Assembly (NCBI RefSeq): GCF_001708445.1
Contig: NZ_CP015637.1
Coordinates: 2,109,001 to 2,173,000 of the forward strand
Source: Pseudomonas fluorescens
GTDB taxonomy: Bacteria > Pseudomonadota > Gammaproteobacteria > Pseudomonadales > Pseudomonadaceae
DNA length: 64,000 bases
Direction of reading: 5' to 3'
The notes under the pieces are model-generated. The model had not been told where the DNA came from and made no database searches. It saw only the letters and a program-made list of their open reading frames with translations. Position 1 is the first letter of the stretch, and the number at the start of each line of letters is the position of its first letter. The translations under genes were made by a program, and so were the position numbers. Positions 12,999 to 36,619 of the stretch are shown in pieces.

Positions 12999-13374
12999 TT
13001 GTTGGGTGGAGAAGAATGTTAGTTGCTATAACTTCAACAAATCTGGACTTTTGGGTGATTGGTTTGTCAAGTTCAATCAGCGTTATTGATTCGCCGATTT
13101 TTAGTATTGCGCAACTTTGGTCTGCATCTTGGATAAGCTCGCCGATAATTTTATGAGCCCCGTTTACAGATGTGATCTCTGGTGTTGTGCCGGATGAGGA
13201 CATAATGTTTTGTCCCCATGAAAATATTTCATCCAGTTCTAATTCTACATCCAGAGTTTCACCAATTTTTAACGTGATTCCGCCCCATAAAGCCGTGGCA
13301 TTTCCAAAGGGTGAGTTGAATTTTACTCTCAAAGTGCCTTTTTCAGAAAAAACATCAGTTACTTTTATCTTCAT
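12991..13374 (-). CDS. Putative immunity protein next to rhs toxin tip
   Basis: The 127-residue protein is soluble, with no signal or membrane segment, and is predicted mostly beta-stranded. It begins MKIKVTDVFSEKGTLRVKFN, with an acidic middle section. It starts 1 bp after the stop of the rhs tip, the usual place for the cognate immunity gene of an Rhs/polymorphic toxin. Its GC is lower than in flanking core genes, consistent with exchange. No Pfam immunity family is recognised by eye; the role is inferred from position only. Confidence 0.55.
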   Translation of the reverse strand: MKIKVTDVFSEKGTLRVKFNSPFGNATALWGGITLKIGETLDVELELDEIFSWGQNIMSSSGTTPEITSVNGAHKIIGELIQDADQSCAILKIGESITLIELDKPITQKSRFVEVIATNILLHPTNA

Positions 13375-13375
13375 T

Positions 13376-20429: not shown

Positions 20430-21482
20430 TCAGGCCAGTTGCACTCGCCGCAGCCGGCCGCTCAGTGCCACTACGCTGTTATCCGGCGCCGGTATCGGCC
20501 GCCCCGTCAGCCCCATGCCTTCACTGATCACCACCGCATCCTGGACCCGGCACAGGTTGGACGGCGTATCCAGCCCGCGTGCCAGTACGGCGACTTGCCC
20601 GGTGTCCAGGTTGCAGCTCAACAGCCGCCCGCTGAAGCGGGTAAAGCCGCCGTGCAGGACGGCACCGTTCCAGTCCGGCGGCAAGGGTTGTTGCAGGTGG
20701 CTGCACAATTCCAGCACCAGCAGGTTGCCGTCCGGGCACCACGCCAACCCGGTGGGCAGTTGCAGCCCGTCAATCAGCACCTCGATCCGACCGCTGGCCG
20801 GGTGTACCCGAATCACCTGGCCGGCCTTGTCGGCAAAGTCGATGCCCTGGCGCGCCGGGTCGCCCCGCAATTCACCGGAGAACAGGCTGATCAGCACCGC
20901 GTCGGTCTGCGGTTCGTAGACCAGGGTCACCGGTACGGCCTCCTGGCCTTGTTCCAGTTCGGGCAGTTGCACCCGCACCTGCTCGTCCTGGCCGTCGCTG
21001 AACTCCACCAGTTGGTTGGTATCGGGCTTGACCGCCAGCCAACTGCGTCGGGTTGGGTGCCAGCACAGCGCATTCAGGTTGCCACGGCTGTGGAACACCG
21101 GTTCGGGCGGGCTGTATTGCAGGTCCAGCAACTTGGAGCCACTGACATAGTCGGTCTGGCTGACCATGCAGTGCCCGTCACCGCAGGCGATGTCTGACAG
21201 GCCCATGATTTCATCGCGCAGCATGCGTGCCTGCATGTTCATCGCGCGAAACCCTTGGGCAAGGCATTCACCGGGCAGGTAGGCGCCGGGTCGTTGCGGG
21301 TCCGGTTGCAGCAGGCTGATACGCCCGCTGAAGGGTTGGTCCGCCAGGCCCGAACCGGCCTCGGCCAGTAACAGGCTGCCATCGGCCCGCAGGCAGACGC
21401 CGCGCGGGTTGAGCAGCCCCTCGGCGATCAGTGTGCTGGGGCGCAGGGTTTCGTCGGGGTGGGCGGGGATATGCCAGGTCAT
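20430..21482 (-). CDS. Beta-propeller (SMP-30/NHL-like) protein ending the ebo operon
   Basis: The 350-residue protein has repeated blade-like strands: GVCLRADGSLLLAEAGSG (residues 29-46), LAWCPDGNLLVLELCSH (about 249-265) and VVISEGMGL near the end. This is the pattern of NHL/SMP-30-type six-bladed propellers. There is no signal peptide, so it is cytosolic as read from ATG 21482. It follows the 602-residue protein by 12 bp and looks like the last gene of the 12-gene unit. Substrate is unknown. NHL-type proteins (ScyD/ScyE) also occur in cyanobacterial scytonemin clusters, but that link is only an analogy. Confidence 0.65.
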   Translation of the reverse strand: MTWHIPAHPDETLRPSTLIAEGLLNPRGVCLRADGSLLLAEAGSGLADQPFSGRISLLQPDPQRPGAYLPGECLAQGFRAMNMQARMLRDEIMGLSDIACGDGHCMVSQTDYVSGSKLLDLQYSPPEPVFHSRGNLNALCWHPTRRSWLAVKPDTNQLVEFSDGQDEQVRVQLPELEQGQEAVPVTLVYEPQTDAVLISLFSGELRGDPARQGIDFADKAGQVIRVHPASGRIEVLIDGLQLPTGLAWCPDGNLLVLELCSHLQQPLPPDWNGAVLHGGFTRFSGRLLSCNLDTGQVAVLARGLDTPSNLCRVQDAVVISEGMGLTGRPIPAPDNSVVALSGRLRRVQLA

Positions 21483-21494
21483 GGGATCGCTCTC

Positions 21495-23303
21495 CTATTG
21501 GGGTGGCTGCCACGGTTCGCCGGTGAGATAGGCGCGCAACAGGGCGCGTTGGCAGGGCGACATCGAGCGCACCACCGGCATGAACAACGTGGTGCCTTTG
21601 TAGGTGTCGGCGGTGCGGGCGAGGATCGCGTTCTTGGCGCCCATCACCGCATCCGGTTGGTTCAATGCCACATAGCGCGACATGGCCGGGAAGGCCAGGT
21701 AGTGAAAGCGCAGGACATTTGGGTACATGAGTTCCCAGGTAATGGTTGTGCCCTCGGGAATGCCGAAGTCGGTCTGGGCGTACTTGCGGAAATTGGTGAA
21801 GTAGCCGCTGCTGTCAAGGCCATTGGCGGTGCAGGTCAAGGCGGCGAAACCCGCCTGGGCCGCGGTGCCGGGCTTGACGCTGACCGGTACGCTGACAGCC
21901 AGTTGCCCGGCCTTCACCGTCAGCGTGGTGGGGACATCGAGGAAGTCGTAGTTTTGCGGGTCGGTGTAGAGCGCCGGAGGCGTGACCGTCAGGCCGATAT
22001 CGGTGGTGTCGGGCACCGGGCCGCCCAGATAGCGGACCTGCAAGGTGATCGACAGGCCATCGGGGTAGTCCTCCAGGTAGACATTGCGCTGATCACCGTA
22101 CACCCGGTAGGTCGATTCGATCGCGTTCAGCGTGGTCCCGGCCACCGTGCCCGGTGCGGTGATGGACAAGGGCGAGACCTGGGTCGCCTGTTGTTGGCTG
22201 GGGCTCAGGGGCACGTCGACGATACCGCCATACACGTAGTAGTCGACCAACGGGCTGCTGGTGGGGTCAAGGGTGGTCAGCAGGGTGGTGCCGGCGCTGA
22301 TACTGACGGTGCCGTAATTGGCGTTCGGCCCGATCGCGCTGGTGATGTCGTCCCTGACCGCCCGGAAGGTTTCCTTGGGGATGACGTTCACCATGTCCAG
22401 GCTCAGCAGGCCATTGCTGGCCAACTCGGCATAGGCTGCATTGGACGTGCACTGGTTGACCAACTGCCGCCCCGGCTGGCAGGTCAGCGGCTCGTCGGCG
22501 AATGCCGGGGCCAGGGTGCCGATGACCCGGCCAATACTGGGGTTGGGCGTGTATTGGCCCAAGGCGTAATCGGCGTTCAGTTGTTCGGTGGTCATCAAGG
22601 GGCACATCTCGAACATCACGAAACGCAGCACGATGCCCGTCGCGCCCGGTGCCTGGATGATCGATTGCAGGCCAGGGCTGCTGGTGTTCCAGCTGACGAT
22701 ACTGCTCAGCGGGAAGGTCAGCTGGAACGTGCCACTGGCGTGGAACGAGCCCGGTGCGTCCATGGTGCCCGGCAGCAGCACGCGGCCCTGCACGTCGAAA
22801 CTGCTGCACACGGTATCGCAGTGGATCAGCAATTGGACGTTGTCGCTGGCGCCGATCTGCAGGCCACCGACGAAGATCTGGGTGGTGGTGGACGCCGTCG
22901 GGTCCAGGTCCACCATCATCGGCCCGGAGTGGGGACCCTGGCCGGTCACCGGGTCTACCGAACCGAGCAGGTAGACCGCCTGGCCCACCAGGTCGCCGGT
23001 GGTGCTGATGCTGCCCGGGCTGCCTTGGGAACTGATCAAGGCGTCCTGGGTTTCCACCAGGTGCTGCCCGTAGTGGTTCCAGCCGCCGAGGGTGTAGCGT
23101 GTTCCGCCGGGGGTATTGAGCATGTCGTTCAACTGGTCGTCGCTGAAAGCCTCGGCTTGCGGCGCCAGGGTCGAGGTGGCCAGGTCAAACACCGGCCAGC
23201 TGTGTTCCGTGCCTTGGGGCAGGCATGGGGTGTTGTTCGACACGCTGACATCCGTGCTGATGCCGCCCCAGAAATTCAGGCGAGGTCCATTCAGAATACT
23301 CAT
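21495..23303 (-). CDS. Large protein of unknown function, module member B1
   Basis: This 602-residue protein opens MSILNGPRLNFWGG with no signal peptide. It is Thr/Ser/Pro-rich and looks beta-rich, with short runs such as TLTVKAGQLAVSVPVSVKPG that resemble immunoglobulin-like strands. The C-terminal 70 residues (FPAMSRYVALNQ, TTLFMPVVRSMSP, RALLRAYL) align with those of the 785-residue protein at 25565-27922, and both start MS(I/V)LN.PR. They are therefore homologues. Each follows a cytochrome-like gene. I recognise no named family. It starts 3 bp after the upstream cytochrome-like gene. Confidence 0.7.
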   Translation of the reverse strand: MSILNGPRLNFWGGISTDVSVSNNTPCLPQGTEHSWPVFDLATSTLAPQAEAFSDDQLNDMLNTPGGTRYTLGGWNHYGQHLVETQDALISSQGSPGSISTTGDLVGQAVYLLGSVDPVTGQGPHSGPMMVDLDPTASTTTQIFVGGLQIGASDNVQLLIHCDTVCSSFDVQGRVLLPGTMDAPGSFHASGTFQLTFPLSSIVSWNTSSPGLQSIIQAPGATGIVLRFVMFEMCPLMTTEQLNADYALGQYTPNPSIGRVIGTLAPAFADEPLTCQPGRQLVNQCTSNAAYAELASNGLLSLDMVNVIPKETFRAVRDDITSAIGPNANYGTVSISAGTTLLTTLDPTSSPLVDYYVYGGIVDVPLSPSQQQATQVSPLSITAPGTVAGTTLNAIESTYRVYGDQRNVYLEDYPDGLSITLQVRYLGGPVPDTTDIGLTVTPPALYTDPQNYDFLDVPTTLTVKAGQLAVSVPVSVKPGTAAQAGFAALTCTANGLDSSGYFTNFRKYAQTDFGIPEGTTITWELMYPNVLRFHYLAFPAMSRYVALNQPDAVMGAKNAILARTADTYKGTTLFMPVVRSMSPCQRALLRAYLTGEPWQPPQ

Positions 23304-23306
23304 GGT

Positions 23307-24563
23307 CTATTCCTTTTCCTTGGACGGGCGGGTACCCGGGGCATTGGCGAATTTGAACAGGTAGGAGAAATCGGACGTGAACAGGCTCTTGGCCGGTGTG
23401 GCCATGGAGTGGCACGTCATGCAACTGCTGTTGGGCTGGATGTAGCTTTCCATGGTCACGTTGGCCGACAGCGCGGGCGTTGGCGTGCCCAAGGGGTTGC
23501 TCGGGTCGTTCGGCCGCAGCGGGCGCTGGGTGGTGATCAGTTGGTAGTACTTGAGCACGCTGTTTTGCAGGCCCGGCTCGGCGCGGTAGCGTTTGTTGAC
23601 GTCGTCGGTCAGCGCGGCAATCGGGGTGAACCGGCTCAGCGGGTCGGGCGTCTGGAACGTGGTGCCCGGCAGCGGTACGCAGACCAGTTGGGCGCCCTGG
23701 GGCTGCCAGGTGCAGGGCGACTGGTTGACGTGGGCGGCGCTGGGGTTGAAGTAGCTGTAGGGCGGGCTGGTGGTCGCATTGGACGGCACGTTGTCGATCT
23801 GCTCGAAGGTCGACCAGACCCACTGCGGGTAGCCGGCCGGCTTGGTGATGATGTGCAGGCCCACCAGCCCCAGGTACGCCTGCTGGGTACCGATGCGCTG
23901 GCCCTGCTCGTTGAACGTGGCAACCTGCGCCAGTTGGGTCAGGTAGCGGCTGGCATTGTCATTGGGCGTCAGGATGCGCCAGCTGGATTTGATCTCGATG
24001 ACCCCGTTGGGGAACTGGATGTTGTTGGCCTTGGACACCACATCGGCGTTGTAGAAGCGGTTGGCGACGATGTAGTTGTAGGAGGTCTCGTTGGCCGCGA
24101 TGTCGTAGTAGGTCGGGTTGCCGGCCTGGTCGATCAGCCAGCCGCCGACGGCCTGGTCAATGAAGGTCTCCTGTCGCGTGTTTTTCAACGCAGCAATGTT
24201 GATGATGCCCAGGGTTCTGGCCGCCAGCGGGGTGTTCCATGGGCCAGGGTCGGCCGCATTCGGCAAGAAAATTTCCTCGACGGTCTTGTAGGTCTGCCAC
24301 ACGGTATAGCCCGCATCGCCGGGCTGTTGACTGCAATTGGGCGTGCCGCGTTGGCCGTCCTGGGCCGGCCAGTTCAACGCGATGAACATCTGCCAGCTGT
24401 ATTGATCGAACTGGTCCTGGCTGGCGGTGGCGACCGGTGCACTGCTGGGCGGCTGGCAGTTGAGTGGGGTGGCCAGCGCCGACGCCGCAGGCGTTTCCCT
24501 GGCCAGCGCCGGCGGGCTGGCCAGGCCGATGACTATCACGGCACAACAAACGAGGCTTTTCAT
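23307..24563 (-). CDS. Secreted single-haem c-type cytochrome-like protein, module member A1
   Basis: The 418-residue precursor has a signal peptide (MKSLVCCAVIVIGLASPPALA, cleavage after about residue 21), placing it in the periplasm. Only one haem c attachment site is visible, SSCMTCHSMA with CMTCH at residues 381-385, near the C-terminus. The first 370 residues are not a known cytochrome domain (QYSWQMFIALNWPAQDG; GLVGLHIITK; WVWSTFEQIDNVPS). The 379-residue protein at 27933-29072 is clearly related. It lies between the Cys-rich secreted protein and the 602-residue protein, all on one strand. An electron-transfer or redox-enzyme role is inferred. Confidence 0.75.
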   Translation of the reverse strand: MKSLVCCAVIVIGLASPPALARETPAASALATPLNCQPPSSAPVATASQDQFDQYSWQMFIALNWPAQDGQRGTPNCSQQPGDAGYTVWQTYKTVEEIFLPNAADPGPWNTPLAARTLGIINIAALKNTRQETFIDQAVGGWLIDQAGNPTYYDIAANETSYNYIVANRFYNADVVSKANNIQFPNGVIEIKSSWRILTPNDNASRYLTQLAQVATFNEQGQRIGTQQAYLGLVGLHIITKPAGYPQWVWSTFEQIDNVPSNATTSPPYSYFNPSAAHVNQSPCTWQPQGAQLVCVPLPGTTFQTPDPLSRFTPIAALTDDVNKRYRAEPGLQNSVLKYYQLITTQRPLRPNDPSNPLGTPTPALSANVTMESYIQPNSSCMTCHSMATPAKSLFTSDFSYLFKFANAPGTRPSKEKE

Positions 24564-24582
24564 GGCGATCCTTCCTTGGGGG

Positions 24583-25506
24583 TCAGGGTTTGCGCTGCAT
24601 CAGCTGGTTCCACTGCGCCTTATGCCCGTTACTCTGCGTCGCCGGCGGCTCGAACAGTTGGCAAGGCGGCGGGTTCGACGGGCACATGGCGGCCACTTGT
24701 GCCCAGGTCTGGGCCGGGTCGGGGCGGGCGATGCGAAAGTTCGTGTAGTTCTGGCTCACGATGGGCGCATTGGCCACGGTGGTGTCCCCCGAAAAGAAGA
24801 ACGACTGCGGCGAGCGGTAGGGCGGTTGTCCCGTCGACACTTTGTTGAAGGCATAGCCGAACAGGATCGGCCCGGCAGGTGAGTCGAGATCCAGCGCATA
24901 GGCCTGCACACGGCCGCCCAGGTTTTTGCTGCGCTCGGCGCTGTAGGGCAGGTGCTCGATAAAATCCTGGCGCGGCGGATGATTCAGCGGCGAAAACATG
25001 CAGCAGGCCGGCATGTCTTTGGGGCGGTCCTGCGGGTAGGTGAGGAAGTACGCCTTGTTGCCCAGGGACACGAAGGTGCAGGTGTAGTGGTTGTCCTTGA
25101 TCGGGAAGATCGGCAGGCAGTACTGCTCGTAGTGCTCCATCATCGCGCCAAAGCCGTCGCCATCCGGCGGGATGTAGGTGGTGTCGTAGTAGCTGGTGCC
25201 CCTGGACACGGTGTAGTCCGCCGGGGTCAGGGTCGAGGGCGGGTTGCTGTAGGGCGGCGGGTTTTTCTCGTAGTTGTGCATCACCCGGTACATCGTCCAG
25301 TCGCTGATCCAGTACGCCGGGAAAAACGGGTCGGTAGGGTCGCTCGGGGCTCGTTTGGCGATGCAATTACCATTCTGCGCGTTGCACCCTGCGTTGTTGT
25401 GTACCCCATTGGTGAAGTACACGGCGCCGCTGTCTTGCCCGCCAAACGCCGCGGGGCTGAGCAGCAGCAGGAGCAGAAACAGTCGACTCAAGAGGCTGGT
25501 GTTCAT
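24583..25506 (-). CDS. Secreted Cys-rich protein of unknown function
   Basis: The 307-residue precursor has a leucine-rich signal peptide (RLFLLLLLLSPAAFG). The mature part carries about nine cysteines (GCNAQNGNC, YCLPIF, YTCTF, ACCMF, MCPSNPPPCQLF), suggesting disulfides, and no CxxCH. It is rich in Tyr and Pro with loop-like segments. It is placed between the two cytochrome/large-protein pairs of the operon, 20 bp before the cytochrome-like gene. No family is recognised. A periplasmic partner of the cytochrome-like proteins is a reasonable guess. Confidence 0.65.
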   Translation of the reverse strand: MNTSLLSRLFLLLLLLSPAAFGGQDSGAVYFTNGVHNNAGCNAQNGNCIAKRAPSDPTDPFFPAYWISDWTMYRVMHNYEKNPPPYSNPPSTLTPADYTVSRGTSYYDTTYIPPDGDGFGAMMEHYEQYCLPIFPIKDNHYTCTFVSLGNKAYFLTYPQDRPKDMPACCMFSPLNHPPRQDFIEHLPYSAERSKNLGGRVQAYALDLDSPAGPILFGYAFNKVSTGQPPYRSPQSFFFSGDTTVANAPIVSQNYTNFRIARPDPAQTWAQVAAMCPSNPPPCQLFEPPATQSNGHKAQWNQLMQRKP

Positions 25507-25564
25507 ATGACACTCCTTTGAAGTCCGGGTGACAGGTGCGTCACCCGGTGGTCCTGTCCGAGGC

Positions 25565-27922
25565 TTACGAGTAGTCGCTCATACTGAGCGGGACGGGTGG
25601 GTAATTGCGCTTCACCAGGGCCTGCGCCCACAGCTCCAGCACGGCGCGCCGGCTTTGCGGCATGTCGCGGGTGATGGGCATCGCCAGGGTGCTTTCCTCC
25701 TGGTACTCCTTGCTGATCAACACAATCAGCTGGTCGACGGCACCTTCGATGCGCGTCAGGGAATTGAGCGGCATGTACTTGCTCATGATCGGGTACAGGT
25801 AATAGAACGGTTGCAGGATGAAGGGGTAGATAAAGCTCTCCCAGATCAGTTGGCCGGCGTCTTCACGCTGGTAGACCTGGTTCCATGCGTCGACAAAGTC
25901 CTGCTGCATCTGCGGCTCCAGCGGCAACACGCGCAGTGGCGCGAGGAAGTCGGTGAAGGCCTGGTTGAGCGGGAAACTGAACGGGATCACCGGCGCCTGC
26001 TGGCCTTCCTGCACAAAGAAACGCAGGGTCGGAAAGCCAGGGGCCTGGGCGGTGACCGTCAGGTTGGCAATGCCGTTGGCGTCGGTCTGGATCTGGGTCA
26101 CGCTGTACTGCACTGTGTTGCTGAGCGGGTCTTGCAACGTGCCTTGCCGGGGGATCGGGTTGGCGAACGACAGGCACGGGCTGAGGGCGACCGAGGCGGG
26201 TGTCGGCAGGAATTGCTGGTAGGTCACCGGCACCGTTTGATCGTCTGATTCGACGATCCGCGTGGCCATGAGCTGGCGACCGGTGCCCTCGGTGACTTCG
26301 GCGAGCAGTGTCGACGTGCCGTTGAATTGCGGGAGGTTGGCGCTGTTCTTGATCGGGTTTTGCGGGTCGTTGTTGAACAGCGTGAAGTCGGCCGCGTTGC
26401 TGAACGCCAGGTAGTAATCGGTGGTGCACAGCATGTAGGCATTGCTGTACTCCGCCACCCACAACACGGTCCCGGCCGGCGCTGGCAGGCCATCGTATTG
26501 CACCATGATCTGCAATGTCTTGGTGTCGCCCACGTCGATGAAGCTGGCGCTCTGCACCACTTCGGCTGTCCACATTTGCTGGGTGGCGGCGGGGGGCGTG
26601 GTGGCGCCTTGCAGTTGCAGTTCCAGCGTGCCGGTTTGCAGCTGCGCCTGGGCCTGGGCGGTGAGGGGCAGGTCGAGGATACCCGCACGTTGGTCGAACG
26701 CCGCCTGCTGGTAATCGTCATAGCCGAAGCTGGCCAACGGGCTGAATTGCTCGCCCTGCCGGATACCGATCTGGTAGTTGCCGGCCTGGAACTTGGCCGC
26801 CACCGGGATGGGCGCGGTCTTGTCGACCGGGTAGAACGGAAAGGCGTTGCCCAGGTCCAGCGACAACGTATCGCCATGGGCCTGCGCCGAGATCACGCCG
26901 AGTTTGGCCGAGGTGGTTTGCGTGGGCGAGGTGATCGGCACCGGGTTGGCCGGGATCAGGCGCCGACCGGCCGGGGCGGTGGGGAATTCACCGTCCAGCC
27001 ACAGGCCCAGGGTGCCGACCGTGCGGCTGTAGGCCGGGTTGAAGAAAATATCGCCGACGTTATCCAGCCCTTGTTGATACATCGCCGTCACCTTGGCCAG
27101 GGCTTCGGGGCTGGAGGAGTGGGTGTCGATGGGCGGGTAGTTATTGAAAATACCGTTCCTGTCGTAGCACGTCAGGTAGGTGGAAAAGCGAAACATCAGC
27201 CCCTTGGCTTTTTGTTGTTCCATCTGCGCCTGCAGGTTTTGCAGCAAGGCCGAGTTGCCGATGACCCAGGCCAGGTTCTCTTTCGGGAAACAGGTCTGCC
27301 AGGTGGTGGTGACGTAGCTCAGCCCGCCAAGGTTGGCCCAGTTGAAGTTCAGGAAGCGGTCGAGCATGCGGTGCTCGCGCTTGAGCGTCAGGCCACATTG
27401 GTCGGTGCCCAGCACCAGTTTGTCGAAGTACAGCGCAGTGAAGGTGTTCTGCCAGGGGCTCACGTCGACAAAGCGCGCCGGTGTGGGCGCGTTGCTGCCA
27501 AACGGGTTGCCGAGCAATTGGAAGCTCTGGTTGATCAGCGGGTCCTGGCTCACATACCCCCCGGTGGGCAACTCGCCGCCGGTGACCACGGACTGGATCT
27601 GGTTGTAGCTCACGGTGCCGCAGGCATTGTCCCCGAACAGGTTCCATTCGCCGGGGATCATCGGCGTGGTCAACTGCGAGGCGTTGCCCGGTACTTGCAG
27701 GACATAACCGGGGATCTGGCTGTGTGGCAGTGGCGCGATCGTCCACGGCAGCAAGGTGCTGGCGGCGTTCTGCGGGGTGACGTTGAAGCTGTCCAGGAAC
27801 CGCCAGTTCATCTGCATCTTCACCGCATCGTAGAGCGGGTACATGTCGTTGTTGTTAGCGGTCGGCGGGTTCCAGAACAGATGGCCGCCCAGGTAGATAC
27901 GCGGGAAATTCAATACGCTCAT
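25565..27922 (-). CDS. Large protein of unknown function, module member B2
   Basis: The product has 785 residues from ATG 27922, which has AGGAG 6 bases upstream; the open frame extends further but inside the preceding gene. It begins MSVLNFPRIYLGGHLFWN, without a signal peptide. Middle regions look beta-rich (TLQIMVQYDGLPAPAGTVLW). The end (YPIMSKYMPLN, STLAMPITRDMP, RRAVLELWAQ) matches the end of the 602-residue protein. Like that protein it follows a cytochrome-like gene, by 10 bp. No named family is recognised. Lack of a signal on both large proteins contrasts with the secreted neighbours. Confidence 0.72.
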   Translation of the reverse strand: MSVLNFPRIYLGGHLFWNPPTANNNDMYPLYDAVKMQMNWRFLDSFNVTPQNAASTLLPWTIAPLPHSQIPGYVLQVPGNASQLTTPMIPGEWNLFGDNACGTVSYNQIQSVVTGGELPTGGYVSQDPLINQSFQLLGNPFGSNAPTPARFVDVSPWQNTFTALYFDKLVLGTDQCGLTLKREHRMLDRFLNFNWANLGGLSYVTTTWQTCFPKENLAWVIGNSALLQNLQAQMEQQKAKGLMFRFSTYLTCYDRNGIFNNYPPIDTHSSSPEALAKVTAMYQQGLDNVGDIFFNPAYSRTVGTLGLWLDGEFPTAPAGRRLIPANPVPITSPTQTTSAKLGVISAQAHGDTLSLDLGNAFPFYPVDKTAPIPVAAKFQAGNYQIGIRQGEQFSPLASFGYDDYQQAAFDQRAGILDLPLTAQAQAQLQTGTLELQLQGATTPPAATQQMWTAEVVQSASFIDVGDTKTLQIMVQYDGLPAPAGTVLWVAEYSNAYMLCTTDYYLAFSNAADFTLFNNDPQNPIKNSANLPQFNGTSTLLAEVTEGTGRQLMATRIVESDDQTVPVTYQQFLPTPASVALSPCLSFANPIPRQGTLQDPLSNTVQYSVTQIQTDANGIANLTVTAQAPGFPTLRFFVQEGQQAPVIPFSFPLNQAFTDFLAPLRVLPLEPQMQQDFVDAWNQVYQREDAGQLIWESFIYPFILQPFYYLYPIMSKYMPLNSLTRIEGAVDQLIVLISKEYQEESTLAMPITRDMPQSRRAVLELWAQALVKRNYPPVPLSMSDYS

Positions 27923-27932
27923 GTCAGGCTCC

Positions 27933-29072
27933 TTAGCGTTGCCACTGGGCGCGTTTGAGCGACCAGACAAAGTCCAGTTTGTGGTAACCGACAAAGTCGG
28001 TGGCCGGCAGTAGGGCGGTGGGGTACACGATGCCGCCCTGTTCCTTGAGGGCGAAATTGAAGTAGCCCTGTTTCGCCGAGTACGCGGCTGTAGCGTGGCA
28101 GGCGAAACACGACGATTGGCTCTGGAAGGCCGACTCCAGCTGGGAATTGGCGAGCAGGGTGGGCGTGGTGTTGGACTGCACGCCAATCAACTCGTACTGC
28201 GCCAGTTCGGCGTACTGGGCCTGGAAGAGCGTGTTGACCGGCTGTGCCGCCGGTGTCGGCCCGGTGCTGTTGGTCATCGGCGTGGGCGGCACCGCATTGG
28301 TCACGGTGTACTGGCTGTTGTGGCGGTTTTCGAAGGTGGTCCAGACCCAGTCGGGGTTCAGCTTGTTGATCACATGCAAGCCGCTCAAGGCGGCATAGCC
28401 CACCTGGTACTGTTCACCTTGCTGGTAGTAGGCCTGGGCGATGTAGTAGCCATCGTTGGCCAGTTGCTGCTGGTAGCTGGGGTCGTTGCCGATCCACAGC
28501 CACGCGGCTTTCAGTTCCCAGGCGGTGGCGGGGAAGTTGAGATCGCTGGTCAAGGCGGCCTGGCCGTTCACGTTGTAGACCTTCTGCTGCACGATGTAGT
28601 CGAACGTGTCCGCGCCCATCAACAACTGGAAGCGCACCGCCTGGCCTTGCTGGTCCTTGGGGACCTGGCCGCCCATTTCCAGGATCAGCCCGTCCACCTG
28701 CTGCGTGGCATTGAGGTTGTGAAAGGTGCGACTGAGGTTCATGCCCAGCGCCTTGGCCTGTTGCAGCACGGCGTCTGGCGGCGGCGTATTTTGGTTGTAC
28801 GGCTGGGGCGGGGCGCCGTTGGCCAGGTACACCTGGTCCGAGGGTTTCAGGGTTTCCCAGACCCGGTCGGGGCTCTGCGCGCTGGCGGGCTGGTTCAGGC
28901 AGGCAAACCAGTTCCAGGCCAGGGTGTCCGGGCTTTGCACAAAGGCCGCCCGGGTCTTGTCGAGGTTGCCTCCAAATTGCAGGAAGTTGCTGCAATCGAA
29001 GGGGTTGGTGTCCTGTGCCTGGGCCAACCCGGCCAATGCACTGAGGACCGTTATAGAGAAGGCTCGCCGCAT
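27933..29072 (-). CDS. Secreted single-haem c-type cytochrome-like protein, module member A2
   Basis: The 379-residue precursor has a signal peptide (MRRAFSITVLSALAGLAQA, cleavage near residue 19). A single haem c site SSCFACHATA lies with CFACH at residues 322-326. It is homologous to the 418-residue protein: both share GLH(V/I)I(N/T)K, WVW(T/S)TFE and the C-terminal haem site. The start overlaps the eboF 3' end by 22 bp, so it is embedded in the ebo operon rather than merely adjacent. The non-haem region is a family unknown to me. Confidence 0.75.
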   Translation of the reverse strand: MRRAFSITVLSALAGLAQAQDTNPFDCSNFLQFGGNLDKTRAAFVQSPDTLAWNWFACLNQPASAQSPDRVWETLKPSDQVYLANGAPPQPYNQNTPPPDAVLQQAKALGMNLSRTFHNLNATQQVDGLILEMGGQVPKDQQGQAVRFQLLMGADTFDYIVQQKVYNVNGQAALTSDLNFPATAWELKAAWLWIGNDPSYQQQLANDGYYIAQAYYQQGEQYQVGYAALSGLHVINKLNPDWVWTTFENRHNSQYTVTNAVPPTPMTNSTGPTPAAQPVNTLFQAQYAELAQYELIGVQSNTTPTLLANSQLESAFQSQSSCFACHATAAYSAKQGYFNFALKEQGGIVYPTALLPATDFVGYHKLDFVWSLKRAQWQR

Positions 29073-30487
29073 GAAAGCTCCTTGGCAATGGCCAGTTCGG
29101 TGTGTGGGCGCCCCAGGAAGTGTTCCAGGAGCAGTTGCTTCACTGCCGTCGCCGCAAGCTGCTGCGGTATCGGCAGATCACAATTGGTGATCAGCAGGGG
29201 GCCGGTCTGCACGCTGGTCGGCAGGCGCCCGTGGCTGCCGCGGACCAGGGAGGTGTCCAGCGGGATCAGGTCCATGTAGTAGCGAAATCCGAGCTTTTTT
29301 TGCAGCAGGCGGCGCGCCACTTTCAGCATGGGGAACCGAATCGCCGGGTCGATAAACAGCTCGACCGGGTCGTAGCCAGGCTTGCGATGGATGTCCACGG
29401 TGCGGGCAAAGTCGGGGGCCTTGCGGTCGTCGAACCAGTAGTAGTAATCAAACCAGCTGCCGGCGGCGGCCACGGCCACCAGCTCGCCGCTGCGCGGGTG
29501 ATCCAGTTGCCAGGCGCGTTGCTCGGCTTTGTCCAGCACCTGCTCGATGCCGGGCTGGCGCTGCAACAGGGCTTTGACCCGAGGGATGTCCTGTGCCTGC
29601 TTGACGTAGACATGCGCAACCTGATGATCAGCCACCGCGAAGGCCGCGCTGGCGCCGGGGTCGAGCAGCTCCCAGCTCAGGGATTGGCGCACCTGCAACC
29701 AGCCTTCGGTGCGCAATACACGGTTGATCGACACCGATTGCTCGACGGCCTCGATGCCATATTCCGACAGCAGCATCACCGCGGCGCCCTGCACCTTGGC
29801 GAAGGCCAGCAGCCGGCCGACTTCACGGTCGATGGCCCGCACTTCGTCGACGATCGACGGGTGATCCGGGCCCAGGCGCTGCAAGCTGTAGTCGAGATGG
29901 GGCAGGTAGACCAATTGCAGGTGGGGACGGTTGATCTGGAACTCGGCAATGGCGCAATCGACGATCCAGCGGCTCGACGCGATGCCGGCCGCCGGGCCCC
30001 AGAACCCGGGAAACGGGAACTCGCCAATCTGCTGTTCGATCTGTTCATGCAGCCCGGGCGGTGACGAGTACAGGCCGAACTGTTTACGCCCGTCCGCCGG
30101 GTAATGCGGGCGCGGGGTGATGGCGGCGTCCACGTCGGCGTACATGTTGTACCACCAGAACAATTGGCTGCAGCGAAAAGCCGGGAACTCGCGCTTGAGC
30201 GTGTGCCAGACCTTTTCACCCTGGACCAGCGCATTGGGTTGCAGCCAGAAGCGTACTTCGGCCTGGTCGCGAAAGTACCAGCCATTGCCGACGATACCGT
30301 GTTGCGACGGCGGTGCCCCGGTCAGGATCGACGCCTGTACCGTCGACGTCACCGCCGGGAACACCGGTTGCAGGTGGGCCAGCTTGGCGGTCTTGAGCAG
30401 GGCATTGATCTGCGGCGTGGCTTCGCCCAACAACGAGGGCGTCAAGCCCACCACATTGATCAACAGCAGCGGTTGCTCAGAGGGCAT
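29051..30487 (-). CDS. eboF: EboF: alkaline phosphatase-superfamily hydrolase
   Basis: The 478-residue protein is of the type I phosphodiesterase/nucleotide pyrophosphatase branch. The N-terminal LLINVVGLTPSLL stands where the metal-binding Asp of the superfamily usually lies, and FPAVTSTVQASILTG carries the nucleophile Thr. LVYLPHLDYSLQRLGPDHP (about residues 200-218) and VADHQVAHVYV supply further metal ligands. The ATG at 30487 overlaps eboE by 11 bp. EboF is one of six conserved ebo products; in P. fluorescens NZI7 this cluster (edb) is linked to repelling nematodes. The substrate is unknown. Confidence 0.82.
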   Translation of the reverse strand: MPSEQPLLLINVVGLTPSLLGEATPQINALLKTAKLAHLQPVFPAVTSTVQASILTGAPPSQHGIVGNGWYFRDQAEVRFWLQPNALVQGEKVWHTLKREFPAFRCSQLFWWYNMYADVDAAITPRPHYPADGRKQFGLYSSPPGLHEQIEQQIGEFPFPGFWGPAAGIASSRWIVDCAIAEFQINRPHLQLVYLPHLDYSLQRLGPDHPSIVDEVRAIDREVGRLLAFAKVQGAAVMLLSEYGIEAVEQSVSINRVLRTEGWLQVRQSLSWELLDPGASAAFAVADHQVAHVYVKQAQDIPRVKALLQRQPGIEQVLDKAEQRAWQLDHPRSGELVAVAAAGSWFDYYYWFDDRKAPDFARTVDIHRKPGYDPVELFIDPAIRFPMLKVARRLLQKKLGFRYYMDLIPLDTSLVRGSHGRLPTSVQTGPLLITNCDLPIPQQLAATAVKQLLLEHFLGRPHTELAIAKELSCGEPSL

Positions 30488-31697
30488 GGGCGTAGGCCTC
30501 CTGGACCGCAGCGTGCAACAGGTTGCGCTGGCGCAGTTGGTCTTCGACCCAGCGCAGTTCAGCGGCGATGCCCTCCAGTTGCGCCGGCTCGGTGGCCGGG
30601 CGCAGTTGGGCGGGCAACACGCCCCAGCTGTAGGTCTCGACTTCCAGCACCGGCCGACAGTCCACATGGCCCGCCAGGTAGTCGAAGGTCTGCGCCAGGG
30701 CGACCTGGCTGCCCGTCAGCTCCGGCAACAGCAGGTGTTCACTGAACAGCGGGATGTGGAAATGAATGCGCAGCTCCGTGAACTGCGCGCAGTCACTGAG
30801 GGCCGCGGGCAAGTCGGCCCAGGCAACCAGGCGACCTTGCGCATCGAGTGCCTTGACCTGATGCAGGTAGGTCGCCTCGGCAAAATGCCCCAGGGTCTTG
30901 AGCACGTGGTCGCGGCGCTGATCGCCTTGAGGCGGCAAGCGGCAAATCATTGCGTTGGACAGCTGGATCTTGCCCACCGGCACTTGCGCCTGGTGCAGCC
31001 GCGTCAACGACTCATAACAGTCTTCGAACATCACGGCCTGGTGGCACACATCAAAACACAGCGCCAGGTACTCATGGTGTGGGTCGAAGGTTTGCCGTTG
31101 CTGGAAGAAGGCGATGGCCTGCGCGGTGTTTTCCAGCACGCAGTCCGGTTCCATTTCCAGGCAGAACAGGATTTTCTTGCCGGTTTGCCGATGCAGCGCG
31201 GCGAGTGCGCGGGTGAGTTGGCTGAGGTGCGCATCGGCGCGTGCCTGCCGTGCTGGGGTCCAAGTGGCGGCGTAGCCCAGGGGCACCGTGGAAATCACCC
31301 CCTGCGCGCAATCGGCTGGCAAGGCCTGGGCGAGGATTCGCGCCAGGTCCAGGCTGTACGCCAGGCGTTGTGGGTCGGCCCAGTCGGGCAGGTACACCTC
31401 GGCTTTCACCGCGCCCTGATGGAATTCGCCATAGGGGAAGCCGTTCAGCGAGGTCAGGCGCAGGCCGCTGTGTTGCAGCAATTGCAGGAACGACTCACGC
31501 GCCGACGCCTGTTGCAGTTCGGCCGCCGCGCGCGCGCAAATCCACAAGCCGCTGTCCTGTTCGTCGAGCCCGCGCAAGCGCCGCACGCCCTGGAAGTGCC
31601 GCGCGATCGAGGCCTGCAGCCCGGCGAGGTCACGGGTGGGGTGGACGTTGCTGCAGTAGCCGACCTGGGGGGCTGTCCAGCCGCTGACGGCGTTCAT
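30477..31697 (-). CDS. eboE: EboE: sugar phosphate isomerase/epimerase-like TIM barrel
   Basis: The 406-residue protein starts at ATG 31697, which overlaps the eboB stop (ATGA). It opens with VGYCSNVHPTRDLAGL and has TIM-barrel metal-site segments: ILFCLEMEPDCVLEN (Glu), LALCFDVCHQAVMFED (Asp/His) and LRIHFHIPLFSEH (His). These are the positions of AP-endonuclease-2/xylose-isomerase-like enzymes, and metabolite TIM barrel proteins named EboE fit. Reaction is unknown. It lies inside the ebo operon with overlapping neighbours on both sides. Confidence 0.82.
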   Translation of the reverse strand: MNAVSGWTAPQVGYCSNVHPTRDLAGLQASIARHFQGVRRLRGLDEQDSGLWICARAAAELQQASARESFLQLLQHSGLRLTSLNGFPYGEFHQGAVKAEVYLPDWADPQRLAYSLDLARILAQALPADCAQGVISTVPLGYAATWTPARQARADAHLSQLTRALAALHRQTGKKILFCLEMEPDCVLENTAQAIAFFQQRQTFDPHHEYLALCFDVCHQAVMFEDCYESLTRLHQAQVPVGKIQLSNAMICRLPPQGDQRRDHVLKTLGHFAEATYLHQVKALDAQGRLVAWADLPAALSDCAQFTELRIHFHIPLFSEHLLLPELTGSQVALAQTFDYLAGHVDCRPVLEVETYSWGVLPAQLRPATEPAQLEGIAAELRWVEDQLRQRNLLHAAVQEAYAHAL

Positions 31698-32578
31698 TTG
31701 ATCACCGGGTCCTGGCCGCGCAGGGCCGAGTTTTCCTGCCATTGCTTGCGCTGGTCGATGGGCAGCGGGGTGCTGACGAGGGCCTTGTCCAGTTGCCCGC
31801 TTTGGGCAAAGAAGTCCACCGGGTTATGGAACAGCACCTGTTCGACCTGGGCCTGGGTGAACCCGGCCGCCAGCATCGCTTCGCCGGTCTTGGGCACTTT
31901 CAGCGGGTCGCTGATGCCCCAGTCGGCAGCGCTGTTGACCACCATTTTTTCGGTGCCGTATTCCTGGAGCAGGGCGACCATGCGCTGCTCGGACATCTTG
32001 GTGTTGGGGTAGATGGAGTGCCCGCGCCAACAGTCGCTGTCCAGTACCAGCGGCAAGGTCAGCTCGTTGAGGTGGTCAATGATGACCAGGTGCTCGGCAA
32101 TCCCCACCTCACGGATCACCGCCAGGGTGCGTTTAGTGCCGCCGATCTTGTCGCGGTGCGGCGTATGCACCAGTACCGGCAGGTTGAATTGCTTGGCCAG
32201 CTCCAGCTGGGCGGCGAGAAAGCGATCCTCTTCGGGGGTGATGTCGTCATAGCCGATTTCGCCGACGGCCACTACGCCGTCCTTGACCAGGTAGCGCGGT
32301 AAAATCCCCAGCACTTCATTGGCGATCGACAGGTCATTGGCCTCCTTGGGGTTCAGGCCGATGGTGCAGAAATGGTGGATGCCGAACATGCTGGCGCGAA
32401 AGCGCTCCCAGCCCAGCAAGGTGTCGAAGTAGTCGACGAAACTGCCGACACTGGTGCGCGCCTGGCCCTGCCAGAAGGCCGGCTCGATCACCCCGGTGAT
32501 CCCGGCGGCGGCCATGTTCTGGTAGTCGTCGGTGGTGCGGCTGACCATATGAATGTGCGGGTCGAAATACTTGAGCAT
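31694..32578 (-). CDS. eboB: EboB: TatD-like metal-dependent hydrolase
   Basis: The 294-residue amidohydrolase-superfamily protein has the metal-site DPHIHM at residues 6-11, then VAVGEIGYDD (Glu), PVLVHTPHRDK (His), VIIDHLNE (His) and NSAADWG (Asp). This is the TatD-type order. GAGGA seven bases upstream supports ATG 32578. It ends with a 4-bp overlap with eboE, implying translational coupling. In ebo clusters the TatD-like member is named EboB; the substrate is not known. Confidence 0.85.
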   Translation of the reverse strand: MLKYFDPHIHMVSRTTDDYQNMAAAGITGVIEPAFWQGQARTSVGSFVDYFDTLLGWERFRASMFGIHHFCTIGLNPKEANDLSIANEVLGILPRYLVKDGVVAVGEIGYDDITPEEDRFLAAQLELAKQFNLPVLVHTPHRDKIGGTKRTLAVIREVGIAEHLVIIDHLNELTLPLVLDSDCWRGHSIYPNTKMSEQRMVALLQEYGTEKMVVNSAADWGISDPLKVPKTGEAMLAAGFTQAQVEQVLFHNPVDFFAQSGQLDKALVSTPLPIDQRKQWQENSALRGQDPVIK

Positions 32579-32617
32579 GGTGGATCCTCGTCAAGGGAAA
32601 AGGGGCGGCACTGGGCG

Positions 32618-33301
32618 TCAATTCAGGTACGTGTGCCATTCCGGCGGCAGGCACAGGCCGCGCAGGCGTTGCAGTTGTGCCGGGCTGAGCAGGTTGAAGG
32701 CGATCACCCGGGGCAGGCCGGGGGACACGCTGCGCCCGGCGGCGAGCTGTTCGTCCAACAGGTCGAGGGCCAGCTGGTTGAGGCTGACGCTGTGGCGCTG
32801 CGCCAGGCCGACCAGGCGCGTGATGTCCAGGCCCATGCCGAGGGCTTTGAGCACCAGTTGGTGAAAGGCGTGCTCCGGGTAGTGACGCGACGGGTAGGCG
32901 GAGTCGAGGGCGAGGGCGGCAAACACCTGGGGGTTGCTGGTGCGCCCGGCCTGCAGCGCCAGCGCCAGGCACTGCCCGTCGCTGTCGAGCCAGTCGAGAG
33001 CGTTGAGCAAGGCGATTTTTTCCAGGTCGTCGCCCCACAGGAACAGCTGGCGCAGCAGTGCCAATCGCTCGGCAGCGGCGCAGGTCTCCAGCACCTGGGC
33101 CAACAGCAAGGCCCGCGCCAGCGCGACCACGGGCGCTTTCAACTGGCGCTTGCACTGGCCGCTCAACAGTGCGGCCGTGTCGGCGTCCGGCTGTTGCACA
33201 AGCCGTTGCTGCGCCTGCTGCCACCACTGTTGCTCGGTGTTATCCAGCTGCTGGCTCAAGTTTTGGCGATGTTCGGTGAGGCAATCCTGGCGCATGTTCA
33301 T
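32618..33301 (-). CDS. eboA: EboA-like protein
   Basis: The 227-residue protein is entirely helical by composition (LLAQVLETCAAAERLALLRQLFLWGDD; ALNALDWLDSDGQCLALALQAGR), resembling a repeat-helical scaffold. ATG 33301 overlaps the eboC stop (ATGA). It has no catalytic motif or signal peptide. The EboA assignment rests on size, helical character and position between eboC and eboB, which is the standard gene neighbourhood, more than on a motif. Confidence 0.72.
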   Translation of the reverse strand: MNMRQDCLTEHRQNLSQQLDNTEQQWWQQAQQRLVQQPDADTAALLSGQCKRQLKAPVVALARALLLAQVLETCAAAERLALLRQLFLWGDDLEKIALLNALDWLDSDGQCLALALQAGRTSNPQVFAALALDSAYPSRHYPEHAFHQLVLKALGMGLDITRLVGLAQRHSVSLNQLALDLLDEQLAAGRSVSPGLPRVIAFNLLSPAQLQRLRGLCLPPEWHTYLN

Positions 33302-34176
33302 GTCGGCTTGATCCAGCGTTGAAAGTGGGGCAGCAGGAAAAACACCAGTACACATAACAGGCTGCCAACCGGCTGGTCGGCCACGGCCAGTACCAGTGCA
33401 TCGAACAACGGCAGGGCGGCCAGGCCGGCACCGATAAACGCGCGAACCTGGCGCTGTTGCGGGTTGGCCAGGTGTTGGTGGTAGTGCCAGCCCAACCAAC
33501 CGAGCCACAACAGCAGCACCGGCCAGAACCACAGGTTGTTGGAGTAGATCGCCAGGGCCAGCGGGCTGAGCATCAGCAGCAACGGCAGGCGGCTGATCAG
33601 CTGGTTGCGGTGTTCCTGGCGTGCCAGGTAGGTGAGGCCGCTGATGTACACGCCGAGCAGGATCGCGCAGAGCCAGATCGGTTCCGGTGGCACCGCCAGG
33701 CTGGCGGCGGCGGTGAGGTACAGCGCCGAGCGACAGGCTCCCATCAGCCATACGCTGTGGGCGTACTTCTTGTGCAGCAGGTTGTAGCCGAAGATGCAGC
33801 CCACCAGCAGCAGTACGCCGCCGAGCAACCAATGCGGCTCATCGATCAAGCGGCTCAGGCCCAGCACCGCGGCAGCGGCCAGGCTCAGCAACAGCGCGGT
33901 CGCCACGCCGACTTGCTGGCGGCTGGCCAGGCCCAGGGTGATCGGGCGCGGGTTGTGGTGTTGCCGGTCCCAGTCGGCATCGAGCAGGTCATTGAGCAGC
34001 ATGCCCGCCAGGTACAGCAGCGACAGGGTGATCAACAGCAACCCCCACACCAGCCATGACGGCGGCGCCAGGGCGCCGGCACTGCTGGCGAGCAGGGCGG
34101 CGGCCAGGGTGTTGGTCCACACCGTGGGCAGGTTGGAGACGCGGCCAAGGGTCATCCAGGTTTTCATCGGGCTCAT
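33298..34176 (-). CDS. eboC: EboC: UbiA-type prenyltransferase
   Basis: The 292-residue integral membrane protein has about eight to nine spans. The first prenyl-diphosphate/Mg2+ motif is present as NDLLDADWDRQHHNPRPI (about residues 62-79, the NDxxD pattern). The second loop region near YLARQEHR is more degenerate. UbiA enzymes attach isoprenoid chains to aromatic or sugar acceptors in the membrane, so the ebo pathway may involve a lipid-linked step. ATG 34176 overlaps the eboD stop (ATGA). Confidence 0.85.
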   Translation of the reverse strand: MSPMKTWMTLGRVSNLPTVWTNTLAAALLASSAGALAPPSWLVWGLLLITLSLLYLAGMLLNDLLDADWDRQHHNPRPITLGLASRQQVGVATALLLSLAAAAVLGLSRLIDEPHWLLGGVLLLVGCIFGYNLLHKKYAHSVWLMGACRSALYLTAAASLAVPPEPIWLCAILLGVYISGLTYLARQEHRNQLISRLPLLLMLSPLALAIYSNNLWFWPVLLLWLGWLGWHYHQHLANPQQRQVRAFIGAGLAALPLFDALVLAVADQPVGSLLCVLVFFLLPHFQRWIKPT

Positions 34177-36044
34177 TGTGCGTAGCCCTCACCCAGCGGC
34201 AGCGCGGCATCGCTGCGACTCAGCAGGCGTTGCAGGGCAGCTTCCATCTTCGCGTTGTCGATTTCGTGCAGGTCCACCGACTCACCGATGCGGCAGAGCA
34301 TCGGGATCGACAGTTGCCCGCCCAGGTGCTGACGGAATTCCTCCAGCCCGAGCAATACCGGCGAGCGACCTTGCGCGTCCCGCAAGGCCAGCTCCGGTGG
34401 GCACAGGTTGAAACCGAGCGTGAGCAACAACTGCATGATCCGTTCGATGTCGGCATCGCCCAGCAGCCCCAGGGCATTGGCGTACACCCCATCCAGGGCC
34501 ATGCCCACCGCCACCGCCTCGCCATGGCGCAGGCGGTGATGGCTGAGGTTTTCCAGTTTGTGCGCGGCCCAGTGCCCGTAATCCAGGGGCCGGCCGTTAC
34601 CGCGTTCGAAGGGGTCGCCGGCCCCGGTGATGTGGTGCAGGTGCAGTTCGGCGCAGCGGCGAATGGCGTAGCGGCTGGCAGCGTGATCGAAATGGGCGAG
34701 GGCGTCGGCGTGCTGTTCCATCCATTCGAAAAAAGCCCGGTCCTTGATCAAGGCCACCTTCACCGCCTCGGCCAGCCCGGCGATCTGGTCGAGGCGGGTG
34801 AGGCTGGTCAGCAGTTGAAAGTCATTGAGCACCGCCGTGGCGGGGTAGAAGGCGCCCAACAGGTTCTTCTGGCCGAAGGCATTGATGCCGTTCTTCACGC
34901 CGATACCGGCATCGTTCTGCGCCAGCACGGTGCTCGGGATACGGATCAGGCGAATGCCACGATGGAAGGTGGCGCAGGCGTAGCCCACTGCATCCAGCAC
35001 CGCACCGCCGCCCAGGGCCAGCACGTAGCAATGCCGGTCCAGGCCGTGTTGCAGCATGTCGCTGTACAGCCGTTCCAGTACCTGCGCGTGCTTGCTCAGT
35101 TCACCGGCCGGCAGCGCAATCGGTGCCGCCTGCAGATGCAAGTCGGGATGCGCGGCAAAGTAGCTGTCGATCTCTTCCAGCAGGTGCGGTGTGCTGAGCA
35201 ACAGTTGTTCATCGGCGAACACCAGTACCGTCACCGGGCCGCTGTGCTGGGCGGTGAGTTGGCGATGCAGACAAGGGTTGAGCGGGGCGAACAGGTGGTC
35301 GGTGAACACCACCGGGTAGTCATAACGGACTTCGAAGCGCCCGTGCAGCGCTTGCTCGGCGTGCGGCTTGCGCGCGGCCTTGAACAGGCTGTAGCCCGCC
35401 ACAAACACCACCGGCAACACCATGCTGGCGAGGATCGTCACCAGCAGCGCGTTTTGCTCGATCAGGAATGTACCGATAGCCGTGTAGGCCAGGGCCAGGC
35501 CCGCGTTGGCCAGGGTGGTGATGACTGTAAATGCCCGCAGCGGATAGCGCTGCATGCCGGCGGCCACCACCGAGGTTTCCGCCAGTACCGGTACGCCACG
35601 CAGGCAAATCAGCGAGAGTGTGCCCAAGCGATACGCCAACTGCCCCGGTTGGCGCTGATGCAGGCCCAGGCGGCCTGACAGCAGGCGAAAATACCCGGCC
35701 CCCAGGGCGTACCCCAACCCGGCACCGAGGCACAGGCCAATGAAAATCACCAGGTAACCGCCCAGGCTGCCCAGCATCGCCACCGCCAGCAGCGCCACCA
35801 GGCTCGACGGCACGGGCAGCACCACGTCCAGCGCGAGCAGGGCAATCAGCAGCAGCGCCAGGTTGAATGTTTGCGTGGGGGTCGTCGGCTGATAGAGGTT
35901 GAGGTGTATCAGGACGTCTTGGATCTGTTGTTCGAACAACAGGAAGCTGGCGATGACCAGCCCCGAAAAGCACAGCAATGACAGCCAGAAATGTTCAACT
36001 GGCCCCTTTTTCGAGAACGCACGATACCACCGGCTGCGCTTCAT
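34173..36044 (-). CDS. eboD: EboD: DedA/VTT-like membrane domain fused to a 3-dehydroquinate synthase-like domain
   Basis: The 623-residue protein has two parts. Residues about 1-220 are membrane segments of the DedA/SNARE-associated (VTT) type (LDVVLPVPSSLVALLAVAML, LRGVPVLAETSVVAAGM). Residues about 240-610 are a sugar-cyclase fold: GGGAVLDAVGYACATFHRG, STVLAQNDAGIGVKNGIN, Glu in GLAEAVKVALI, and His in DYGHWAAHKLEN and LRHGEAVAVG. These correspond to the DHQS metal ligands and lysines. ATG 36044 has AAGGGA upstream. It is the first gene of the operon. Typical EboD proteins are the cyclase alone, so the fusion is notable. Confidence 0.85.
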   Translation of the reverse strand: MKRSRWYRAFSKKGPVEHFWLSLLCFSGLVIASFLLFEQQIQDVLIHLNLYQPTTPTQTFNLALLLIALLALDVVLPVPSSLVALLAVAMLGSLGGYLVIFIGLCLGAGLGYALGAGYFRLLSGRLGLHQRQPGQLAYRLGTLSLICLRGVPVLAETSVVAAGMQRYPLRAFTVITTLANAGLALAYTAIGTFLIEQNALLVTILASMVLPVVFVAGYSLFKAARKPHAEQALHGRFEVRYDYPVVFTDHLFAPLNPCLHRQLTAQHSGPVTVLVFADEQLLLSTPHLLEEIDSYFAAHPDLHLQAAPIALPAGELSKHAQVLERLYSDMLQHGLDRHCYVLALGGGAVLDAVGYACATFHRGIRLIRIPSTVLAQNDAGIGVKNGINAFGQKNLLGAFYPATAVLNDFQLLTSLTRLDQIAGLAEAVKVALIKDRAFFEWMEQHADALAHFDHAASRYAIRRCAELHLHHITGAGDPFERGNGRPLDYGHWAAHKLENLSHHRLRHGEAVAVGMALDGVYANALGLLGDADIERIMQLLLTLGFNLCPPELALRDAQGRSPVLLGLEEFRQHLGGQLSIPMLCRIGESVDLHEIDNAKMEAALQRLLSRSDAALPLGEGYAQ

Positions 36045-36619
36045 CAAAGCATCCCTTTTGAGTGTTAAGACTTAAATTCCGTGTCTTGTGTTAACGCTGC
36101 GTCTGGTCGGTTTTCAGAGCAATAAAATTCCTCGCCTGGATGGCTGTTTATACGGGCAATGGCTGATTGCCTTCATGGTATGGATGAACTTAGTCGGTTG
36201 TGGTTTTTTTGCAAGTTTGTCGGGCGACAGCGTTTTAAAACGCGACTGAAAGCAGGTCGAGACGGGTTTTGTGTGATGGGATTTATTGATTTATTACAAC
36301 GAGTTGCATGGTATTTTGAATGACGCCAATAACCCGTCAAACGTGTTTGTCTTGAATGAGTCATTGATGTTCAAGTGCGCGAAGCGTGTTGTTTTCGGGG
36401 ATGAATTATTGCCGTTCGCTATATAGCGTTGTTCCACGTTGTATTTGTCGAGAATGATTCCGTTTAATGCGGGCATGCTCGAACCGTGGAGTTGTTTCGG
36501 GAGCGTCCTGCAACTAAAGGGACCTGCGTTATTGGCCTTTAAACCCGTTGTGCGCGCGTTGCCCGCAATGCTGCGGGGTGCGCACGGATGCGCTCAAGAG
36601 GCCACTGAGCCGGCGTGCG
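36045..36619. other. AT-rich intergenic region upstream of the ebo operon
   Basis: This 575-bp stretch separates the LysR gene from eboD on the same strand and must hold the ebo promoter. It is visibly AT-richer than its surroundings. TTAAG-A-CTTAA at 36067-36077 is a short palindrome just upstream of the ebo ribosome-binding site. A 60-residue minus-strand frame (36294-36476) has ordinary composition but no ribosome-binding site. No gene is supported. Confidence 0.45.

Follow-up and report, generated by a model that had tools for sequence, protein, structure and literature searches.

A conserved ebo gene cluster, most likely of the EDB type, in Pseudomonas fluorescens and a possible role for its exported haem proteins

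The stretch of DNA analysed here (the window) comprises 64,000 nucleotides of the Pseudomonas fluorescens contig NZ_CP015637.1 (NCBI RefSeq assembly GCF_001708445.1, positions 2,109,001 to 2,173,000), and at 36044-20430 it carries twelve consecutive minus-strand genes. The first six are eboD, eboC, eboA, eboB, eboE and eboF; the six after eboF encode, in order, a haem protein (A), a large protein (1), a Cys-rich protein, a second haem protein (B), a second large protein (2) and a propeller (Table 1). The junctions are tight throughout, neighbouring genes overlapping by as much as 22 nt or standing no more than 58 nt apart; for eboA, eboF and large protein 1 the start was taken directly from the sequence. 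An earlier note on this DNA had described just such a run of eboD-C-A-B-E-F followed by six more same-strand genes, and this layout is confirmed. That note also named independent promoters or terminators between eboF and the cytochrome-like gene as signals that would speak against a single unit. A consensus scan listed no sigma-70-like promoter inside the unit on the minus strand; the number of its terminator-like matches (18, compared with 13.2, sd 4.1, in shuffles) is near the shuffled value, so the scan says little either way.

Table 1. Genes of the twelve-gene unit and the eboD leader, with coordinates in the window and a description.
Feature	Coordinates	Strand	Description
eboD	34173..36044	-	VTT (DedA-type) membrane domain, residues 78-192, fused to a 3-dehydroquinate-synthase-like cyclase
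eboC	33298..34176	-	UbiA-type prenyltransferase; Pfam UbiA 1.6e-12; NCBIfam EboC 5.8e-22, under cut-off
eboA	32618..33301	-	NCBIfam EboA domain 141.5 bits, cut-off 50
eboB	31694..32578	-	TatD-like hydrolase; Pfam TatD_DNase 2.8e-11
eboE	30477..31697	-	TIM-barrel protein; NCBIfam EboE 404 bits, cut-off 250
eboF	29051..30487	-	Type I phosphodiesterase / nucleotide pyrophosphatase; Pfam Phosphodiest 1.6e-60
Haem protein A (core)	27933..29072	-	Exported, one C-terminal CxxCH; proposed cytochrome P460 relative
Large protein 1 (core)	25565..27922	-	Weakly VioB-like, without export signal; TIGR04492 VioB 2.4e-9, 35.6 bits, cut-off 1250
Cys-rich protein (optional module)	24583..25506	-	Exported; no Pfam or NCBIfam match
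Haem protein B (optional module)	23307..24563	-	Paralogue of A; hhalign 7.6e-27
Large protein 2 (optional module)	21495..23303	-	Paralogue of large protein 1; hhalign 3.2e-18
Propeller	20430..21482	-	ScyD/ScyE-like, without export signal; NCBIfam ScyE_fam 4.7e-16, 59 bits, cut-off 80
eboD leader	36042..36092	-	Two possible GGA-in-loop hairpins, the second over the ribosome-binding site

EboE was found in 38 of 298 Pseudomonas genomes, the window genome included, and in every one of the 37 other ebo-positive Pseudomonas loci the genes for haem protein A and large protein 1 follow eboF. The pairing of ebo genes with a cytochrome-like gene, which the earlier note proposed to follow across genomes by synteny, is therefore kept in all of these loci, and it recurs in Telmatospirillum (see below). 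Twenty-seven of the 37 have all twelve genes, eight have nine (without those for the Cys-rich protein, haem protein B and large protein 2), in a further one no Cys-rich gene could be detected, and the last breaks off after large protein 1. Because the same order recurs in related genomes, the order of the twelve genes is not due to chance. When named genomes were searched with large protein 1, 55 loci came back, a good many of which share a species. Forty hold twelve genes, 11 hold nine (among these, L115 retains a scrap of large protein 2), three are cut, and one is from the alphaproteobacterial Telmatospirillum siberiense (L147, 8750-18628), where haem protein A and large protein 1 adjoin ebo genes in another order. 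All 55 carry at least one ebo gene on the same stretch, a short contig having eboF only. Gene order across these genomes establishes the ebo genes and the six added genes as one conserved, operon-like unit.

The nine-gene form is not confined to one branch. In a tree built from 54 sequences of large protein 1 (L118 and L136 were left out), the nine-gene label requires five changes, or four when only well-supported branches are counted, and in the tree as drawn the nine-gene rows fall inside the twelve-gene rows. Our reading is that the three optional genes may have been lost together, repeatedly, in scattered lineages. The unit divides into a core of nine genes and an optional module of three.

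According to Klicki 2018 (PMC6282210), the EDB ("edible") cluster of P. fluorescens NZI7 combines a complete ebo set with additional genes, some of which encode signal peptides, and the window unit likewise has the full ebo set and further genes, some bearing signal peptides. The twelve genes most likely represent an EDB-type cluster, matched here by the published description and not gene by gene; no record named NZI7 occurs among the 55 named-genome loci found with large protein 1. The claim of the earlier note that the combined unit is undescribed has to be given up, as its content fits the description of EDB in passages of PMC6282210 and PMC9655573. Insertions in eboA, eboD or eboE of NZI7 render the strain edible to Caenorhabditis elegans (PMC6282210). 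EDB placed in Escherichia coli yields indole-3-aldehyde and an indolyl-oxoacetamide, which repel C. elegans to a moderate degree, as well as two further compounds listed without a repellence test, and the review that reports this concludes that EDB turns external tryptophan into repellent indoles (PMC9655573). A second known system to which the unit can be likened is that of the cyanobacterial ebo and scytonemin genes, where ebo genes likewise occur with a ScyE-family propeller, an indole product and a late periplasmic step (PMC6282210). It differs from the window unit in that the window propeller has no export signal, the haem and VioB-like proteins are extra, and scyA-C are not among the twelve genes.

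The ebo assignments are of varying strength. Curated cut-offs were passed by EboE and by the EboA domain (Table 1), and missed by EboC (78 bits vs. 250) and by the EboA family model (72 bits vs. 320); the other ebo genes were assigned by Pfam family. In the window EboD, the cyclase part (DHQ_synthase, 1.5e-34) is preceded by a match to Pfam VTT_dom at 1.5e-9 (38.8 bits, cut-off 33.9), and the NCBIfam model UptA is matched at 5.3e-4, far under its cut-off. VTT is the family to which DedA transporters belong. Judged by length and coverage, the fused VTT region is present in 33 of the 37 loci, two being without it, one cut and one broken. The words VTT, DedA and SNARE are absent from the main texts of PMC5133447 and PMC6282210; the proposal made in the latter is that a lipid carrier is moved by a capsule ABC permease (Klicki 2018). 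A related EboC-type enzyme of marine bacteria farnesylates quinoline acids (PMC9235831).

Large proteins 1 and 2 are homologous to each other (hhalign probability 99%), as the earlier note had suggested, and they show weak, piecewise matches to VioB of violacein synthesis. The VioB model was matched by large protein 1 in 18 of 18 members and by large protein 2 in 14 of 16, and the best stretches, which come from different proteins, cover VioB 1-160, 262-389 and 505-573 in protein order. A scan of eight proteins with the VioB and ScyE models included six large proteins, one of them (L118) without a match; the propeller matched the ScyD/ScyE model in all three cases scanned, at 59, 56 and 69 bits and in each under the cut-off. 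No match over the cut-off was returned by a VioB family search of 398 genomes, and the Protein Data Bank (PDB) yielded no match to large protein 1, searched both singly and as a profile, or to the propeller. VioB belongs to a tryptophan-derived dimer pathway. The same is true of ScyE (PMC6282210), and the origin of both in such pathways agrees with the indole products of EDB.

Export predictions, which rest on a crude hydrophobicity scale and not on a signal-peptide program, divide the added proteins into two sets. A hydrophobic N-terminus was found in none of 53 large protein 1, 40 large protein 2 and 51 propeller sequences, and because of this half of the added genes (those for the two large proteins and the propeller) are placed, probably, in the cytoplasm. 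The Cys-rich protein, with a median of 8 Cys, has such an N-terminus in 40 of 41 relatives, in agreement with the earlier note, which had it secreted. The same note had given both haem proteins a signal peptide and a single C-terminal CxxCH, and their relatives bear this out: 51 of 55 A-type and 38 of 40 B-type sequences have a hydrophobic N-terminal stretch, and all 55 of the former and 39 of the 40 latter contain exactly one CxxCH, close to the C-terminal end.

Haem proteins A and B are homologous (hhalign probability 99.7%), and 16 diverse members share, among others, invariant Phe56, Lys188, Trp191, His233, Glu248 and Tyr293 in addition to CxxCH; this invariance rests on the 16-row alignment, and of 15 further haem-family loci nine passed a motif filter that itself requires the His/Glu and six were omitted from a larger alignment of 25 rows. 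A profile of the 16 proteins gave six matches in the PDB up to E 10, and in a weak match to the solved cytochrome P460 9hrk it pairs both the lysine motif and CxxCH. In the P460 of M. capsulatus, which is described as a five-stranded sheet, Lys78 is the residue cross-linked to haem (PMC6427953). Using the 6hiu offset and the Gly73/Lys78 spacing, we infer that the lysine of the haem proteins corresponds to Lys78. Aligned to 26 P460-family sequences (of 29 extracted, L172, L173 and L180 being left out; L174 gave none), the haem proteins reached an hhalign probability of 54%; in separate alignments this was 47% for A plus B, 69% for A and 81% for the C-terminal part, and the large proteins, used as controls, gave 0.2% each. 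The score of 38.8 lies above the maximum of 35.1 in 200 column shuffles that retained CxxCH and above 100 of 100 that did not, and with the haem part removed a score of 27.8 compares with a maximum of 19.2 in 200 shuffles. An AlphaFold2 model of haem protein A (mean pLDDT 83.7, pTM 0.85) places Lys188, His233 and Glu248 on strands 185-195, 221-236 and 243-249. The likeness to cytochromes P460/c'-beta lies in a CxxCH near the C-terminus, a lysine motif paired through weak profile matches and an aromatic strand before the haem motif, whereas the EDB haem proteins are much longer (~380-420 residues, with large insertions, vs. ~140-160 in solved P460/c'-beta chains) and carry the invariant His233 and Glu248. 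They may be unusual, enlarged relatives of cytochrome P460/c'-beta in which the lysine would be placed to form the cross-link to haem. Two side observations touch the same families: the window genome has a separate cytochrome P460 family gene over the Pfam cut-off (G000:C1:2940175-2940546), and a relative of the EDB haem proteins (L084) lies near a family 31 glycosidase.

Gene content, linkage and sequence relations are what we observed; the remaining mechanism is one that we infer from them. In the cytoplasm, large protein 1 (joined by large protein 2 where present) and the propeller would work on an indole derived from tryptophan. The Ebo proteins would then carry the product over the inner membrane, the VTT domain of EboD being a possible flippase for a prenylated carrier, and haem protein A, with B where present, would oxidise the exported product in the periplasm, the outcome being a cell-associated indole that deters grazing nematodes. 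We put the probability of this reading as a whole (an EDB-type cluster with indole chemistry, ebo export and periplasmic haem oxidation) at roughly 0.45. The earlier note had the ebo product oxidised in the periplasm by the added haem proteins; as the conserved unit joins ebo genes with exported haem proteins, periplasmic oxidation of an ebo-dependent product may reasonably be supposed. The most specific form of the proposal, in which the haem proteins are a new, enlarged P460 branch with a lysine-haem cross-link that oxidises a tryptophan metabolite in the periplasm together with VioB-type proteins, and EboD VTT is the flippase, is speculative and on balance doubtful. If it were true, P460 chemistry would extend from hydroxylamine to natural-product biosynthesis.

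A number of observations weigh against the proposed mechanism. In the PDB search the P460s 9hrk and 6hiu come only fifth and sixth of the six matches (E 2 and 2.7), outranked by a hydroxylamine oxidoreductase (0.3) and unrelated proteins; when the profile is built solely from EDB haem proteins, the one match is OmcS (0.13), and Pfam P460 is matched in two of 16 members, with a best E of 0.052. The hhalign probability of 54% falls to 2% in global mode, is 17% for B-type proteins alone and is 11% without the haem part. Five positions ahead of the lysine, where P460s keep a glycine, the window protein A has a threonine, and the model of this protein has nine strands before the CxxCH helix and leaves the fold undecided. 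As for the other components, eboD is without VTT in three nine-gene genomes (L058 = L140, L059 = L146, and L143) and in Telmatospirillum, and neither the propeller nor the optional genes were found at the Telmatospirillum locus. The VioB scores of the large proteins are far under the cut-off (Table 1), the C-terminal half of VioB is not represented in them, and the match is missing from large protein 2 of the window and of L118. The substrate of VioB is an imine made by another enzyme, and the unit holds no plain tryptophan-using enzyme.

The most serious alternative, if still an unlikely one, is that the haem proteins are plain electron carriers that take electrons from an oxidase partner, the chemistry being done elsewhere. 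Relatives outside EDB do lie near oxidases: a GMC oxidoreductase stands beside L081 (by Pfam) and, judged by eye, beside L080, L082 and L083, and a tyrosinase-like protein is two genes off in L085. In EDB, however, the large proteins have no export signal and the haem proteins have one, so that the obvious partners would be across the membrane, and the invariance of the lysine, histidine and glutamate across 16 diverse rows suggests a role beyond carrying electrons. It is improbable that the ebo part and the added part make two unrelated products and have a promoter alone in common. G500, another Pseudomonadales genome, does have ebo without the added genes, and the haem family is wider than EDB, with members in 12 of 249 genomes, two of them EDB carriers; the large proteins, on the other hand, were found in two of these 249 genomes, both EDB carriers, and the linkage holds in all 37 Pseudomonas loci and in Telmatospirillum. 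That the OCD-family and FAD oxidoreductase genes downstream (20350-18247), which lie on the same strand after a 79-nt gap and belong to families of amino-acid oxidase and imine reductase type, are part of the unit and supply the imine can hardly be right, and we rejected them and a YheO-like gene as members, these genes being seen downstream in none of the 37 other loci, although one locus ends too soon to show them.

We found no paper linking VioB, P460 or VTT to ebo or EDB, although the primary papers on EDB may make some of these links. Relative to the earlier note, the resemblances to VioB, ScyE and P460, the VTT domain of EboD and the optionality of three added genes are new observations; the resemblances name a testable chemistry for the added proteins and a candidate flippase.

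The region upstream of eboD (36042-36104, minus strand) is alike in many Pseudomonas loci, and its hairpins (Table 1) are as would be expected for Rsm control. GacS, according to an abstract, reportedly regulates EDB. The leader alignment holds 41 of 64 sequences collected, the different-looking L118, L119, L120, L133 and L141 being among those left out. GGA occupies both loops in four of five folded leaders (L062 folds otherwise), the fold energies of the hairpins are within the shuffle range, and RNAalifold on the leaders gave three other pairs at -0.01 kcal/mol; as Rsm sites the predicted hairpins are unproven. Further upstream of eboD lies a gene for a LysR regulator (36620-37558, minus strand), as also in L074, L075, L076, L097 and L103, of which L076 and L097 look like one species. 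Elsewhere in the window (12991-14419, minus strand), an RHS core fragment of 347 aa with a TTG start and a variable C-terminal tip lies in a low-GC patch, and a 127-aa open reading frame directly after it is a possible immunity partner.

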